This document shows positions 413-4,810 of a stretch of 5,328 nt of DNA, in pieces. Both the position numbers and the translations under genes were made by a program. Below the pieces are notes generated by a model that saw nothing but the letters and a program-made list of their open reading frames with translations, was not told the origin of the DNA and did not search any database. Each line of letters begins with the position of its first letter. Positions within the stretch are counted from its first letter, which is position 1. The DNA comes from JBFLXN01 sp040755715 [NCBI: Candidatus Edwardsbacteria bacterium] (GTDB taxonomy: Bacteria; Edwardsbacteria; AC1; JBFLXN01). Location: positions 1-5,328 of the forward strand of contig JBFLXN010000180.1 of the NCBI GenBank assembly GCA_040755715.1, written 5' to 3'.

Positions 413-436
413 TATGCCGAACGAAGTGAGGCATAT
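412..436. repeat. 7-bp hairpin overlapping the waaA initiation region
   Basis: ATATGCC (412-418) and GGCATAT (430-436) are perfectly complementary around an 11-nt loop. In the mRNA the stem contains the ATG at 414 and part of the GAGG ribosome binding site (428-431), so it may modulate initiation. It could equally be a further small mobile repeat adjoining the palindrome at 292-412. Confidence 0.5.
428..431 (+). promoter_or_regulatory. Putative waaA ribosome binding site
   Basis: GAGG at 428-431 (GTGAGG from 426) lies 9 nt before a GTG at 441 and 6 nt before a TTG at 438. It is 18 nt from the ATG at 450 and downstream of the ATG at 414. It is the only Shine-Dalgarno-like sequence near the start, and it favours initiation at 441. 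Confidence 0.4.
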
Positions 437-440
437 CTTG

Positions 441-1727
441 GTGTTATGTATGTATTTCTTATACAATCTTCTTATTACACTTGGTTTTATTCTAACTTCG
501 CCCTATTTGTTCTTGCAACTCCTTATTCATCCTGCAGAATGGTGTGGTCGTCTGGGGCTTTATTCTTTAAAACACAAAAGAGATATTAAAAATCCTGTTT
601 GGCTCCATGCCGCTTCAGTAGGTGAAGTTGGAATGTTGCCACCACTAATATTTCAAATCAAGAAATTGTATCCACCTCAGAAGATAATTATCTCTACTAT
701 GACCTTTACCGGACAAAAAAAGGCAAAAGAGACCTTAATGGACTACGATGTCTTATTTCTCTTCCCTTTAGACTTGCCTTGGGCAATCGGTCGTCTGTTC
801 TCTTTTTTTAGGCCAAAAATTTTGTTCTTGGCTGAAACAGAAATCTGGCCAAATTTAATAAGAATAGCAAAACATTATTCTTGCAAGGTAGTGCTTATTA
901 ACGGACACCTTTCAGACCGCTCCTGCTCCTCCTACAAACGCTTTGGATTTTTTTTCAGAAAGGTGATGAAAAATTTTGATTTCCTCTTTGTCCAGACAGA
1001 GAAGGACGCCAAAAGATTTGAGTGTATTGGAGCAGAACCAGAGAAGATTAAAGTTGTTGGCAATCTCAAATATGAGACAATGCCAATAGAAATGAGGGAT
1101 AAATCTAGTCTTAAAAATCAATTTAGTATTGCCGAGGAAGCAAAAATCTTTGTGGCTGGCTGCACTCGCTCTGGGGAAGAAGAAATAATTCTTCAGGCTT
1201 TTCAAATGTTAAAGGAAAAGTTTCCGTTTCTATTTCTAATCTTAGCCCCTCGCCATCCGGAGAGATTCAATGAAGTTTCTTCTCTTCTCAAACAGAAAGG
1301 ATTTCAATTTTTGAGGCAAAGTAGGTTGAATGCGGAATGCGGAATGCGGAATGCGGAATGCGGAATTTTATTACTGGACAGTATTGGTGAATTGGCTTCG
1401 GTCTATGCTCTGGCTGATTTTGCGTTTGTTGGGGCAAGCCTGGTGCCTTTAGGTGGTCATAATCCCCTGGAACCAGCCGCTTACGGTATTCCGGTTCTCT
1501 TTGGTCCATATATGGATAACAACCAAGATGCCGCCAACCAACTCAAAACCAGTGGCAGTGGAATTGAAGTCAAAAATTCAGAGGATATAGTATCAGTAAT
1601 TTCACTATTGATTTCTAACAAAGAAGAATGCCAGGAGAGAGGAAAAGCCTCTCTCAGGGTGCTTGAAGAAAATAGAGGTGTTACCAGGAGAATCGTGCAA
1701 TTGTTGACCGACAAACGGTTGTTATGA
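441..1727 (+). CDS. waaA: 3-deoxy-D-manno-octulosonic acid (Kdo) transferase, GT30 family
   Basis: WaaA (KdtA) transfers Kdo from CMP-Kdo to lipid IVA at the cytoplasmic face of the inner membrane. From the GTG at 441 the protein has 428 residues, close to the 425 of E. coli. A hydrophobic N-terminal anchor (about 5-30) is followed by HAASVGE (56-62), whose Glu is the expected catalytic base. Then come ETEIWPN (132-138), GCTRSGEEE (240-248), APRHPERF (269-276) and, in the CMP-Kdo-binding half, GGHNPLEP (338-345). The start is uncertain. ATG 414 lies in a repeat and lacks a ribosome binding site. GTG 441 has GAGG 9 nt upstream. ATG 450 would give MYFLYNLL, also typical of the family. Residues 297-308 come from a heptamer DNA repeat, in a loop just before the strand leading to GELASVYALAD, where the family varies in length. 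The stop overlaps lpxK by 4 bp. The family call is very secure. Confidence 0.95.
   Translation: MLCMYFLYNLLITLGFILTSPYLFLQLLIHPAEWCGRLGLYSLKHKRDIKNPVWLHAASVGEVGMLPPLIFQIKKLYPPQKIIISTMTFTGQKKAKETLMDYDVLFLFPLDLPWAIGRLFSFFRPKILFLAETEIWPNLIRIAKHYSCKVVLINGHLSDRSCSSYKRFGFFFRKVMKNFDFLFVQTEKDAKRFECIGAEPEKIKVVGNLKYETMPIEMRDKSSLKNQFSIAEEAKIFVAGCTRSGEEEIILQAFQMLKEKFPFLFLILAPRHPERFNEVSSLLKQKGFQFLRQSRLNAECGMRNAECGILLLDSIGELASVYALADFAFVGASLVPLGGHNPLEPAAYGIPVLFGPYMDNNQDAANQLKTSGSGIEVKNSEDIVSVISLLISNKEECQERGKASLRVLEENRGVTRRIVQLLTDKRLL
1328..1366 (+). repeat. In-frame 7-bp tandem repeat inside waaA
   Basis: The unit GAATGCG is repeated five times without a mismatch, followed by GAAT (39 bp, about 5.6 copies). 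Because 7 is not a multiple of 3, the unit is read in all three frames, giving NAECGMR and then NAECG. The waaA frame stays open on both sides, with conserved family sequence before and after. Gain or loss of one or two units would shift the frame; three units would not. Confidence 0.95.
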
Positions 1728-2809
1728 GACAAAGAATACCTCTCTTTATCCGAGAAAAAGTCTGGGCGAACAAATCATTATTATCGTTTTTACTTCTGCC
1801 GTTCTCCTTTCTCTATGGCGCTATTATCATTTTTAGAAACTGGTTATATGAACAGAATATTTTTAAATCTTACTCTTTTAATATCCCGGTGATTAGTGTA
1901 GGAAATATCACTGTAGGGGGAACAGGCAAGACTCCGTTCATCGCTTATTTAGCCCGATTTCTTAGAGATAATGCGAAAAGAGTAGTAATTTTGAGCCGCG
2001 GTTACAAGAGAAGGGAATATCGGTCTTCCGTAGTTTCTAATAGGGAAAGAGTTTTAGTTTCGTGCCAAGAGGCAGGTGATGAACCTTATCTTCTGGCGGA
2101 AAATCTTTCCGGAGTGCCAGTAATGGTAGGAAGGGATAGAGTTGGATTAGCAAGATTAGTCAGGGAGAAATTCCAGCCAGAAATAATTTTATTAGATGAT
2201 GGTTTTCAATATAGAGCCTTAAAGCGAGACCTAGATATTGTCCTCATCAATGTGAATGACCCATTTGGTAACAAAAGGCTTTTCTCCAGCGGACCATTGC
2301 GAGAACCATTAAAAAGCCTCAAGCGGGCTCACATATTTATCCTAACTCATTCCACTTCTCAAGAAAAAATAGCACAACTTACAACCGAATTATCTAAATA
2401 TAATCCAGAGGCCCAAGTTTTTATGGCGGTTTATCAGCCAGTTAAACTGAAAGAATTTGTTTCACCAAAAGAAATTTCTTTTGAAGAATTAAAAATTAAG
2501 AGGCTTTATGCCTTTTCCAGCATTGCCAACCCTTTGTCTTTCCGCAACACGCTAGATTCGTTGCAAGCAAACATTATTGGGTGGGAAATCTTCCCTGACC
2601 ACTATTGGTATAAAATAGAAGACCTCCCAAAAATAGAAGAAAAAGCAGTGAATTCTCAAGCAGAAATATTATTGACCACGGAAAAGGATAAAGTCCGCCT
2701 GCCCAAGGAATGGAAATCTAAATTGCCCTGTTATATTTTAGGTATAGAAATAAAAATTCTTTCTGGGGAAAAAATTTTACAAAAACTCGTTCTGAGTGTC
2801 TGTGACTAA
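1724..2809 (+). CDS. lpxK: Tetraacyldisaccharide 4'-kinase
   Basis: LpxK phosphorylates the 4' position of tetraacyldisaccharide-1-phosphate to make lipid IVA, the acceptor for WaaA, at the inner membrane. The protein has 361 residues, somewhat longer than the 328 of E. coli. A hydrophobic N-terminal segment (about 18-37) precedes the P-loop GNITVGGTGKTP (60-71). Other family motifs are SRGYKR (91-96), GDEPYLLA (118-125), VGRDRV (135-140), the Walker B-like LLDDGFQ (156-162), GPLREP (190-195), ANP (268-270), FPDH (290-293) and TTEKDKVRL (318-326). The Asp of GDE, the DD pair and the His of FPDH correspond to positions that, as I recall, are catalytic or metal-binding in Aquifex LpxK. Its ATG overlaps the waaA stop as ATGA, with no close ribosome binding site, so translation is probably coupled. 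Its 3' end overlaps a convergent truncated ORF. Confidence 0.95.
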   Translation: MRQRIPLFIREKVWANKSLLSFLLLPFSFLYGAIIIFRNWLYEQNIFKSYSFNIPVISVGNITVGGTGKTPFIAYLARFLRDNAKRVVILSRGYKRREYRSSVVSNRERVLVSCQEAGDEPYLLAENLSGVPVMVGRDRVGLARLVREKFQPEIILLDDGFQYRALKRDLDIVLINVNDPFGNKRLFSSGPLREPLKSLKRAHIFILTHSTSQEKIAQLTTELSKYNPEAQVFMAVYQPVKLKEFVSPKEISFEELKIKRLYAFSSIANPLSFRNTLDSLQANIIGWEIFPDHYWYKIEDLPKIEEKAVNSQAEILLTTEKDKVRLPKEWKSKLPCYILGIEIKILSGEKILQKLVLSVCD

Positions 2810-2911
2810 AAACAAATGATAGATTACTCGACGTGGGTTCACATATACTAAGGCTTTCTGAATTTTGATTCTTTCTATGGTATCGCTAATTTGCTTAGCA
2901 GACTCCATCAT
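2777..2911 (-). pseudogene. Truncated small ORF resembling the N-terminus of a DUF5665-type membrane protein
   Basis: The minus strand has an ATG at 2911 overlapping the stop of the upstream lipoprotein gene (ATGA). An AAGGA site at 2924-2920 sits 8 nt before it, inside that gene. The ORF has 44 codons: MMESAKQISDTIERI, then VNPRRVIYHLFLV at 24-36, ending DTQNEFL. From memory, the NPRR-hydrophobic pattern resembles DUF5665 proteins, in which it runs on into a Gly-rich stretch and a membrane helix. Here that part is missing: the similarity stops at about 2806-2801, where the sequence becomes the antisense of the lpxK 3' end. I infer a gene cut by a rearrangement that joined it tail-to-tail to lpxK. 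It may still be translated by coupling. The family link needs a profile search; the coupled start is seen directly. Confidence 0.45.
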
Positions 2912-4179
2912 TGTTGTAATCCTTCAAAATAATTGATTGCCTCTGCTACATCAACTTTTAACATCTTCTTTATATCCAAACAGGCAAGTTTTGATAATAA
3001 TTTGATCAAATCGTTGTGCTTTGCTTTTTCCATCTTTTGTGCTTCGTTAACAAATTTAGGTATTATCTCTTCGCTTGATTTCTCAATCACTTTCAACCAG
3101 AAATAAGAAACAATATAATACCCCAGTTTTTCTTCTTTTGAAATTGGCTTTACTTCGGTAAAGTCCTCCTCGGCTTTGTAATGTTTCAAAACCCATTTCC
3201 GCAGGTCGTATTTCTTTATACCAATGTCTAGCTGCGCCTTCATAAAGGTTATACCTTGGCTGTTAAACTCACCCCATTCTTTCTTTGAAAGATGCTCTTT
3301 TGTCCACCAATGAAGTGCAATCTGCGCTAAGCCATCCGCTACCCACCGAGTTGCTCTGTCGTTGCGCAAAGCTGGGATTGCAGAAATTAAGGTTTGTTCA
3401 GTCCATTCGTGAATATTAAATTCAGATATTTCATCGGTGGCTTTTTCTTTAAGTGAGTATGGCCAGATGTTTTTTATGGAACACGATAGTAACCCTGATT
3501 CCTCGCATAGCACAATTCCCCATGGAAGTATAGGTTCTAATCCGAATTTCCGGGTGATCAGGTATTTTTGCTTTATAAGGTCGGCTAATATTGTATCTGC
3601 TTTTGCTCTTGCCTGTGTGGGATAATAAACTCTTAGACTATCTTGACTGTTGATAACTCCTTTGTCTTCTATAGAAACAGCAAAAGCCTGTGTCATACCC
3701 TTCGCAATCGTGTCTACCTCTCCTACTCCTGTAAAATCTGCTCCAAGTTCATACTTCCAACCGCCTTCAATTGTGCAAATTGGGTCCATCATTAGCATTG
3801 AACGATTTAACACAAAACTTCGGCTTCCATCTTTTCCAGTAAAATAAACCAATGGAACCTGCGTGCTATCCTTGACGGTTATGGTTATCTTGACCCCTTC
3901 AATGGGCTTCCCCTCTTTGTTTTTAGCTTTTACATCAAAGCGAAGTTCATTTATTTGCATCTTAAAGACTTTACCAACCATTTTATTCAAACAGTCAAAA
4001 TCATCTTTTAGATGATGTTTCTCCACTTTAATAGAATCAGAAAGCCATACCACTTCGGGTTTGCGCATCGAAGACGTATCCTTGCGCTTTATCGGCACGG
4101 GAAGTCGGATGGTGCAACCAGCCATTGTAAACAATATTAAAATAGTGCTCAAACCTATGACTTCTCTAGATTCTTTCAT
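2908..4179 (-). CDS. Lipoprotein with Ig-like region and degenerate gluzincin (peptidase MA-like) domain
   Basis: The ATG at 4179 is chosen because AGGAG lies 8 nt upstream; a TTG at 4200 would place that site inside the gene. The 423-residue product begins with a signal peptide ending in MAGC, so Cys22 is probably lipidated. Residues about 77-125 (DVKAKNKEGKPIEGVKITI, then YFTGKDGSRSF) look like a carboxypeptidase-regulatory or Ig-like beta sandwich. Residues about 195-423 have the layout of a gluzincin: a lead-in strand, HEWTE (257-261) in place of HExxH, WVADGLA (279-285) in place of WLSEGLA, then a helical C-terminus containing GYYIVSYFWL. The second His ligand is Glu and the usual downstream Glu is Asp, so zinc binding in the standard way is doubtful. 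It may be a binding or scaffold protein at the periplasmic side of a membrane. The fold is inferred from pattern; the substrate is unknown. Confidence 0.8.
   Translation of the reverse strand: MKESREVIGLSTILILFTMAGCTIRLPVPIKRKDTSSMRKPEVVWLSDSIKVEKHHLKDDFDCLNKMVGKVFKMQINELRFDVKAKNKEGKPIEGVKITITVKDSTQVPLVYFTGKDGSRSFVLNRSMLMMDPICTIEGGWKYELGADFTGVGEVDTIAKGMTQAFAVSIEDKGVINSQDSLRVYYPTQARAKADTILADLIKQKYLITRKFGLEPILPWGIVLCEESGLLSCSIKNIWPYSLKEKATDEISEFNIHEWTEQTLISAIPALRNDRATRWVADGLAQIALHWWTKEHLSKKEWGEFNSQGITFMKAQLDIGIKKYDLRKWVLKHYKAEEDFTEVKPISKEEKLGYYIVSYFWLKVIEKSSEEIIPKFVNEAQKMEKAKHNDLIKLLSKLACLDIKKMLKVDVAEAINYFEGLQQ
2920..2924 (-). promoter_or_regulatory. Ribosome binding site for the truncated coupled ORF
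   Basis: AAGGA on the minus strand lies 8 nt upstream of the ATG at 2911-2909, within the last codons of the lipoprotein gene. Together with the ATGA overlap it argues that the short ORF once was, or still is, a genuine gene. Confidence 0.45.
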
Positions 4180-4187
4180 GTCCTTTT

Positions 4188-4192
4188 CTCCT
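4188..4192 (-). promoter_or_regulatory. Ribosome binding site fixing the lipoprotein start
   Basis: AGGAG (within AGAGGAG) lies 8 nt before the ATG at 4179-4177. It selects that codon over the TTG at 4200-4198, which has no upstream site. Confidence 0.75.
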
Positions 4193-4236
4193 CTTTTCAA
4201 AGTGCAATTACCAAAAATTTGCTACAAACTGGATTT

Positions 4237-4285
4237 TTCCCAAAGTGGGCACGCGCAAAAATAAGAGGCTTGCCCACTTTGGGAA
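4237..4285. repeat. Perfect 15-bp inverted repeat between two minus-strand genes
   Basis: TTCCCAAAGTGGGCA (4237-4251) and TGCCCACTTTGGGAA (4271-4285) are exactly complementary around a 19-nt loop. Each arm also carries CCC and GGG that can pair on their own. It lies in the 121-bp gap between the small secreted protein gene and the lipoprotein gene. Neither strand has a T-run just after the stem, so it is not a typical intrinsic terminator. It may be an mRNA-processing or stabilising hairpin, a dispersed palindromic repeat, or a protein-binding site. Confidence 0.85.
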
Positions 4286-4300
4286 GTCAGAACTAGCTCA

Positions 4301-4810
4301 CTACTTAATATAAATTTCACAACCAATATCCCAGCCGTCAATACGGCGCGCCCAACAGTGAACGCCTATGCTAATGAGGGTGATATTCGGTGGAAATGGT
4401 TTTACATAGTAAGCCGCATATTGTGGATTTTCAAGAATGTATGCGGCAAACTCGACGAGTAGGCAACCACCTAATACCTGCGGCTCAACCAACCAGTCAT
4501 TCAACCTCTCCTGAATATCGTTCCGAAGTTTATGGATGACACCATTGGTATTACCAGTTTTTAGCATTTCTAATGTCGCTTCAATCTTGTTAATTATCGC
4601 CGTGCGGCCGTTTTCATTCCTAAATTCACCGCCACCCGCTGCGAAGAATGCTTTGACTTGTTCCAACCAAACCGTAGCGGCTGCGATGGCGGAATCATAT
4701 CGTGTGTATCCAGTTAGCTCCGTAGGTGGCGGTTGAAGCGCCAGTGGGCAGGCAATAGCTACACTACTCCAGAGGACTAATAGTCCAATAGCTAAAGTTA
4801 GTCTTTTCAT
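4301..4810 (-). CDS. Small secreted helical protein, FIMAH-like, function unknown
   Basis: I do not recognise a named gene. The 169-residue product has a clear signal peptide (MKR, then a hydrophobic core to about 18) with likely cleavage after Ala20 before Cys21; AIAC is a poor lipobox, so a periplasmic or secreted protein is more likely than a lipoprotein. Residues about 68-106 (AIINKIEATLEMLKTGN, then VIHKLRNDIQERLNDWL) look like a helical hairpin resembling the FIMAH repeat of surface proteins. Four cysteines (21, 116, 152, 164) could form disulfides. GGGAG lies 4 nt before the ATG. Two sampled 60-base lines of the gene (4321 and 4621) contain 33 and 31 G+C, well above the AT-rich lipoprotein gene downstream, which may mean different ancestry. 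It probably shares a transcript with that gene. Confidence 0.75.
   Translation of the reverse strand: MKRLTLAIGLLVLWSSVAIACPLALQPPPTELTGYTRYDSAIAAATVWLEQVKAFFAAGGGEFRNENGRTAIINKIEATLEMLKTGNTNGVIHKLRNDIQERLNDWLVEPQVLGGCLLVEFAAYILENPQYAAYYVKPFPPNITLISIGVHCWARRIDGWDIGCEIYIK

Follow-up and report, generated by a model that had tools for sequence, protein, structure and literature searches.

Tandem repeats within genes are expected either to have a unit length divisible by three or else to serve as a switch. The stretch of DNA analysed here (the window, 5,328 nucleotides of a Candidatus Edwardsbacteria bacterium) carries a perfect array of a 7-nt unit inside a conserved gene, raising the question of how such an array came to lie there and whether it does anything. 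Tandem Repeats Finder resolved the array (Table 1) as period 7, 5.6 copies (5.57) of GAATGCG with 100% matches, in agreement with the five copies plus four bases read by eye in the original prediction. The two-copy GAATGCG pattern, allowing up to two mismatches, matched the window four times against 0.01 expected from shuffles, and in 5328 uniform random bases a perfect period-7 run as long as this one would be expected about 2e-16 times; chance is therefore excluded. The host open reading frame (ORF) matches Pfam PF04413 (Glycos_transf_N, E 2.5e-56) and five NCBIfam lipid IV(A) Kdo transferase models (E down to 2.4e-105, all below the curated cut-offs), and is by these sequence matches WaaA, with 2xci as its closest solved structure (E 9.5e-44). 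Translation may in fact begin at a later ATG, for example that at 447. The array is in frame and encodes residues 305–318 (LNAECGMRNAECGI), in a length-variable loop running from PRHPER to the conserved LLLDSIGEL, where homologue alignments are gapped. The predicted Kdo transferase host, the intact frame and the loop ahead of a conserved strand are thus all confirmed. A hairpin at the array was considered and rejected, as it folds no better than shuffled sequence (z of −0.12 and 0.83 for the two strands with DNA parameters, −0.28 with RNA parameters). Positions 1300–1400 gave zero matches to a plasmid collection (BLAST with the low-complexity filter on), and Rfam had nothing in the window at gathering scores.

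Table 1. Array and genes at the waaA locus of the window, and genes at other loci that carry a GAATGCG array in frame
Feature	Position or locus	Strand	Remarks
Tandem array GAATGCG x 5 + GAAT	1328..1366	+	39 nt; with edge bases encodes LNAECGMRNAECGI
waaA/kdtA, Kdo transferase	414..1727	+	437 aa from first ATG
lpxK, tetraacyldisaccharide 4'-kinase	1724..2809	+	overlaps waaA stop
MurD	L046		array within domain
YbeY	L063		array within domain
CbiD	L103		array within domain
MoeA	L027		array within domain
Histidine kinase ATPase	L024		array within domain
Tetrapyrrole methylase	L068		array within domain
Sulfatase, SGSH_C part	L026		array within domain
MutL	L011		array between or beside domains
CobB	L028		array between or beside domains
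MutY-like protein	L059		array between or beside domains

The WaaA homologue search covered 223 distinct genomes (sets of 10, of 193 drawn from one phylum, and of 21). None of them holds a close relative of the window waaA, the longest good match being 40% identical (residues 59–431), with short partial matches reaching 45% over 44 residues; there is therefore no empty site to compare for the insertion. The window loop has a length of 42; among 61 homologues without an array (67 of the 85 loops could be parsed) the median is 41. No net lengthening is therefore visible, and the array occupies a loop of ordinary size. The same 61 array-less loops show no clear trace of a degenerate heptamer periodicity (0.273 at lag 7, vs 0.263 in the upstream part of the gene). 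Their lag-14 self-identity is raised (0.287 vs 0.256), without a clear signal at lag 7.

The properties of the unit bear on where it can lie. A GAATGCG array is free of stops in all six frames; it translates to ECGMRNA repeats on one strand and to RIPHSAF repeats on the opposite one. Since 7 and 3 are coprime, the three frames of a strand encode one cyclic peptide, and a heptamer array that is stop-free in one frame is stop-free in all three frames of the same strand; an array such as GAATGCG can enter any frame, and its total length alone matters. Three exact copies (21 nt) were found in at least 119 stretches of the bacterial genome collection and in 29 stretches of viral contigs. These span 15 or more phyla as judged from record titles (mostly metagenome bins, so that an individual label could be in error), among them Planctomycetota, Verrucomicrobiota, Bacillota, Bacteroidota, Acidobacteriota, Gemmatimonadota, Nitrospirota, Chloroflexota, Omnitrophota, Myxococcota and Pseudomonadota. 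Fourteen records picked for their array held 2 to 81 overlapping matches each, while the reversed unit matched 0 times in 13 and once in the other. Within Microbulbifer, the exact array is present in four of 41 genomes (19, 51, 54 and 81 overlapping matches); of the 37 without it, at least two have mismatched near-copies. The original prediction had allowed that a one-off event would be favoured if relatives lacked any length change and the genome had no other arrays. This condition is half contradicted: length change is rare in the other genomes compared (see below), yet arrays abound in other genomes, and GAATGCG is not a one-off. By analogy with those genomes, GAATGCG may be dispersed in the window's organism too. 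In three viral contigs with similar flanks (L126, L135, L138), arrays of 23, 23 and 29 nt lie between inverted repeats ATGACGAAA ... TTTCGTCAT.

GAATGCG is one heptamer among many. Over 273 kb of sequence surrounding waaA and lpxK, most of it from Omnitrophota and some of it counted twice, we found 12 exact period-7 arrays, three with period 8, a single one with period 14 and none at the other periods from 4 to 15. The twelve represent eleven different heptamers, and two of them (L152, L154) are in genomes first met through GAATGCG. When the GAATGCG arrays of the loci selected for this unit were masked with 150 bases on each side, period 7 again led among the longer runs. Among 159 GAATGCG arrays, 144 are 22–34 nt and 15 are longer, although the length cut-off in short-read assemblies may partly be an assembly effect; in genome G246, assembled as one 5.38-Mb contig, 10 of the 21 arrays measure 30–33 nt and some reach 67. 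Instead of declining steadily, the lengths of other heptamer arrays show a bump at about 29–34 nt. For 155 GAATGCG arrays, the phases of both start and end are far from uniform (chi-square p of about 8e-14 and about 8e-17, uncorrected for relatedness), with 50 beginning GAATGCG and 47 finishing GAAT. The window array shows the most frequent start and also the most frequent end.

Arrays of this unit also lie in other coding genes. Of the 159 arrays, a census assigned 61 to the interior of greedily chosen ORFs, 58 to the ends of ORFs and 40 to intergenic DNA; since spurious long ORFs in GC-rich sequence exaggerate the coding share, the census served only for picking candidates. Ten of the 61 were picked by eye as conserved-looking and tested against Pfam. 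All ten have Pfam domains and carry the array in frame, several of them being housekeeping genes, and the array falls within the matched domain in seven and between or beside domains in three (Table 1). Aligned with 3lk7, MurD shows an eight-residue gap at the array; the gap of YbeY against 1oz9 is smaller. In the Omnitrophota genome G001, a GAATGCG array lies in lpxK, the homologue of the window's neighbour gene, about 300 bases from that genome's waaA. Short-repeat insertion into coding DNA, the type of event suggested in the original prediction, thus gains support from other conserved genes.

Heptamer arrays recur in the same loops of homologous genes, often with different units. We examined 90 waaA and 63 lpxK frames (85 and 57 distinct) from the 10 first-searched genomes, from the best-matching part of the Omnitrophota genomes with a match (181/193) and from lpxK relatives. 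Exact period-7 runs numbered five in waaA and nine in lpxK, against codon-shuffle means of 0.02 and 0.00, while other periods gave (waaA/lpxK) 3/1 for period 8, 3/1 for period 14, 2/0 for period 10 and 1/0 for period 6. Six of the 11 waaA arrays of period 7, 8 or 14, each in a different Omnitrophota gene, sit in the loop homologous to that of the window array, directly before an LDTIG-like motif, with units that include GCCTCCA, CAAGGGA, GGCACACC and GGGTTAAC. The other five comprise one in another loop before an HA.S.GE motif (L154), two T-rich stretches in the N-terminal segment and two before the matched region. In LpxK, arrays of six genes occupy the loop between RGY (or QGY) and a GDE-like motif; the tract of L297 in this loop is a less exact TGAACCC/TTAACCC. 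A second LpxK loop, after TEKDA, holds heptamer arrays in two genes (L300 and L313, the former counted in both loops). In L300, a palindrome CCTGCC...GGCAGG stands between two GCTATCC tracts, so that different repeat types pile up in one loop.

The same behaviour was seen in ybeY and murD, which were chosen since one member of each has GAATGCG; their relatives were not chosen for repeats. For YbeY, 23 of 40 genomes were used and 20 loops parsed, a loop being called 7-periodic at z above 4. Ten of the 20 are 7-periodic (0.03 expected) and none is periodic at lags 3–6 or 8–12. Eight of these ten are exactly 48 nt long despite differing units, the set of units comprising GGAATGC/GGAGTGC, GGAATTC, GGAAAGC, CCAGAAT-like and CGACGCC-like sequences. 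The YbeY loops without period 7 measure 27 nt (the shortest), 33, 36, 45 and 48 nt, and 72–90 nt in five cases. For MurD, 20 of 41 genomes were used and all 20 loops parsed; again ten are 7-periodic (0.0 expected), built from ATTCCGC, GAAGTCA with ATTCTGC, CGTCCAC, CGTCAAT or TTCATCC. Six of the MurD loops without period 7 are 30 nt long and the others 36, 54, 69 and 72 nt; the shortest array loop is 51 nt. Leaving out the two query genes, 7-periodic loops number 9 of 19 in both families. Array loops and short loops are interleaved in the gene trees (single-gene trees with uneven support): the sisters L394 and L406 have a 105-nt loop with an array and a 30-nt loop without one, and the sisters L046 and L384 carry different units. 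Hairpin folding is seen in the 7-periodic loops of MurD (mean z −2.9) but not in those of YbeY (mean z −0.4) or in the window array, indicating that hairpin formation is not a general feature of the arrays. In L372, L380, L402 and L405, the YbeY loop has no heptamer array but, in its stead, a palindromic insert rich in GC (GGGCGGGC...GCCCGCC).

The best reading of the WaaA array is that of a passenger carried in a tolerant loop, its frame held by selection on WaaA. With modest confidence we favour a near-neutral member of a dispersed class of heptamer arrays that arrived as a ready-made or copied tract, rather than one grown from a local seed or kept as a switch. The class consists of short (about 22–40 nt), perfect, period-7 arrays scattered through many bacterial genomes, between genes as well as, repeatedly, in frame within them. 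The WaaA loop is free to vary in length and sequence. An array can survive in an essential gene provided that the net change in length is divisible by three; purifying selection on WaaA would then hold the frame, and the encoded peptide (NAECGMR repeats) would do nothing in particular. Arrival would be by ectopic copying or by repair, drawing in either case on arrays that the genome already contained. For the window itself, we infer both the neutrality of the array and its arrival by copying.

Copying of existing arrays stands ahead of local slippage narrowly and with low certainty. It is favoured because arrays within a genome share units, array ends are non-random and a certain length is preferred. 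The ordinary length of the window loop and the unlike intergenic sequence at most unmatched Microbulbifer sites (see below) weigh against the favoured reading. Local birth, to which we assign a lesser though still appreciable chance, would proceed by replication slippage starting from a heptamer present in the loop by chance, whole units being added until the net change is a multiple of three, with nothing copied. It is favoured by the diversity of units within one Omnitrophota genome (G046), where GCTATCC and ACGCTTC occur in lpxK and GGGTTAAC in waaA. Loop lengths also speak for it, since the commonest YbeY array loop exceeds the shortest loop without period 7 by 21 nt (48 vs 27 nt), that is by three units, and the shortest MurD array loop exceeds the six 30-nt loops by the same amount. 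Slippage tied to a 7-nt polymerase contact has moreover been proposed in print, as reported in the accessible part of PMC4679880. Five ybeY relatives scanned for GGAA(A/T)(G/T)C units provide a further comparison. The unit in ybeY is clearly the genome's commonest in one of them, G289 (8 of 9 matches), makes up about half of the family matches in G294 (6 of 13) and is a minority in G284 (2 of 8), G281 (1 of 6) and G272 (2 of 7 plus one mixed). Copying of the commonest unit into ybeY fits G289, partly G294, and not the remaining three, and this one-in-five result counts for local birth. Against it stand the dozens of matches of one unit per genome with the reversed control at or near 0, the non-random end phases, and the length bump near 29–34 nt in place of decay, seen in G246 also.

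The observations could also be read more boldly. An active genome-wide process might write and rewrite heptamer arrays as units, putting arrays of about 30 nt into new sites, spreading one unit through a genome and exchanging the whole array at a fixed site for another unit of similar length. On this reading, the exchange would extend to the loops of essential genes (ybeY, murD, lpxK, waaA). We regard this proposal as speculative and rather unlikely; if true, such arrays would represent a novel kind of mobile sequence, very short and evolving in concert.

The original prediction had raised the possibility of a phase-variation switch, in which gain or loss of units turns WaaA, and hence lipid A-core synthesis, off and on. 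A 7-nt unit does shift the frame, and lipopolysaccharide genes are a classical type of phase-variation target. However, WaaA is usually essential, so that an off state would be costly, and all ten tested coding cases are in frame, several of them in housekeeping genes such as murD and ybeY. Copy number could be compared directly between two other genomes, the close Microbulbifer relatives G246 and G204. Five of six clean orthologous GAATGCG arrays are equal in length in stretches 94–96% identical. Three of these five equal-length pairs carry point mutations in one genome, and the sixth clean pair differs by a single unit (the pairs L231/L279 and L242/L257 were too rearranged to count, and the G246 loci L234 and L239 were left out). 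The hypermutable copy number that marks contingency loci was thus not seen in these arrays. At most of the remaining G246 array sites, G204 has quite different intergenic sequence, so that clean insertion was not shown. An orthologous intergenic site (L241/L286) carries GGAATGC repeats in G246 and GGACTCG repeats in G204. By analogy with the arrays of these genomes, a switch role of the window array is unlikely, and we hold the probability to be very small.

Equally improbable, in our view, is RNA-templated synthesis of the arrays by a telomerase-like reverse transcriptase similar to that of the DRT10 defence system. DRT10 provides a precedent, as it makes tandem-repeat DNA of programmable unit length (PMC12632851, accessible part), and arrays of one unit are plentiful in a few genomes of one genus (Microbulbifer). 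RVT_1 was found in three of the four array-bearing Microbulbifer genomes against 15 of the 37 without an array, and also in three of four genomes outside the array scan. Array-bearing G236, a multi-contig draft searched with this one Pfam model, is without any RVT_1 match, and the many different units, sometimes within one genome, likewise count against such an enzyme. That the window array is an assembly artefact or sequencing error is hardly credible: repeats are error-prone, but the frame is intact across the tract and similar arrays occur in named isolates (L015, L022), in the single-contig G246 and in orthologous pairs.

Several known repeat systems resemble the array in part. Rickettsia palindromic elements are short repeats inserted in frame in protein-coding genes, a placement that the window array shares; they are palindromic and longer, whereas the window array has 39 nt and folds no better than shuffled sequence. 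Cyanobacterial STRR sequences, like GAATGCG arrays, are dispersed tandem heptamers, but have other units and were described from intergenic DNA. The window array is a perfect head-to-tail repeat of a 7-nt unit in at least four copies, as in the dispersed heptameric simple sequence repeats. Of these, the accessible text of PMC4692102 describes GGGAATC in Xanthomonas and GGGGA(C/T)T in Nostoc, which likewise have a 7-nt unit; they are dispersed, prefer a length of four units and occur as singles or inverted pairs. Their sites are common to related species in 83% of cases, and the authors judge a role resembling phase variation unlikely. Their units are G-rich and can form G-quadruplexes, while GAATGCG has no G-tract of three, only GG; they are also mostly intergenic (intragenic shares of 11% and 7% in two Xanthomonas, larger in Nostoc), whereas the window array is in a conserved gene. 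Unit replacement at a fixed site is not described for them in that text. TAACTGA repeats, reported in the accessible part of PMC4679880 from Beggiatoaceae, Cyanobacteria and Bacteroidetes with horizontal spread suggested, are like GAATGCG a single heptamer unit scattered over distant groups. TAACTGA, however, has a forward stop, and its repeats in ORFs are mostly in hypothetical proteins (PMC4679880), in contrast to GAATGCG, which is open in six frames and found in conserved genes. In the portion of PMC9879509 accessible to us, the perfect tandem repeats of Borg elements are judged recent, lie in ORFs in 43–65% of cases with the frame kept, and differ in homologous proteins. The arrays described here resemble them, though all Borg ORF repeats have unit lengths divisible by three (PMC9879509) and the unit here is 7 nt.

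The over-representation of heptamers in bacteria was already known (accessible parts of PMC4692102 and PMC4679880), and a 2025 census found a subset of 6–9-bp repeats highly enriched in prokaryotic phyla (PMC12699852, accessible part). In the open-licence literature searched, we came across no account of heptamer arrays that lie in conserved loops and have their unit replaced, nor the sequences GAATGCGGAATGCG, GCATTCCGCATTCC, NAECGMRNAE or FRIPHSAFRIPH. Arrays of a 7-nt unit lie in frame in conserved genes of many phyla and recur in the same loops, the unit often changed between related lineages. Being homologous, alignable and frame-constrained, these sites offer a comparative system for asking why heptamers dominate long bacterial repeats. 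They suggest a widespread and little-understood process of repeat formation more readily than an on/off switch. They also call for caution in annotation, since NAECGMR or FRIPHSA in a predicted protein can be translated repeat DNA and is not necessarily a functional motif.

Other features of the window were noted in passing. The reverse-strand ORFs 2908–4200 and 4301–4810 have, by eye, signal- or lipoprotein-like starts, and gave zero Pfam or NCBIfam matches at E 0.001. Between them, at 4237–4285, lies an 18-nt inverted repeat whose arms are 94% complementary and 13 nt apart, probably a terminator or a small repeat element. Two 25-nt direct repeats, AAGAGTTCACTTTTGAA(C/T)TTTAAAT, are found at 64–121 with a spacing of 33 nt. 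Upstream of waaA, at 286–420, an imperfect inverted repeat (GATTACGCAGATT ... AATCTGTGTAATC) surrounds a GC-rich palindrome and looks, by eye, like a dispersed MITE- or REP-like element.
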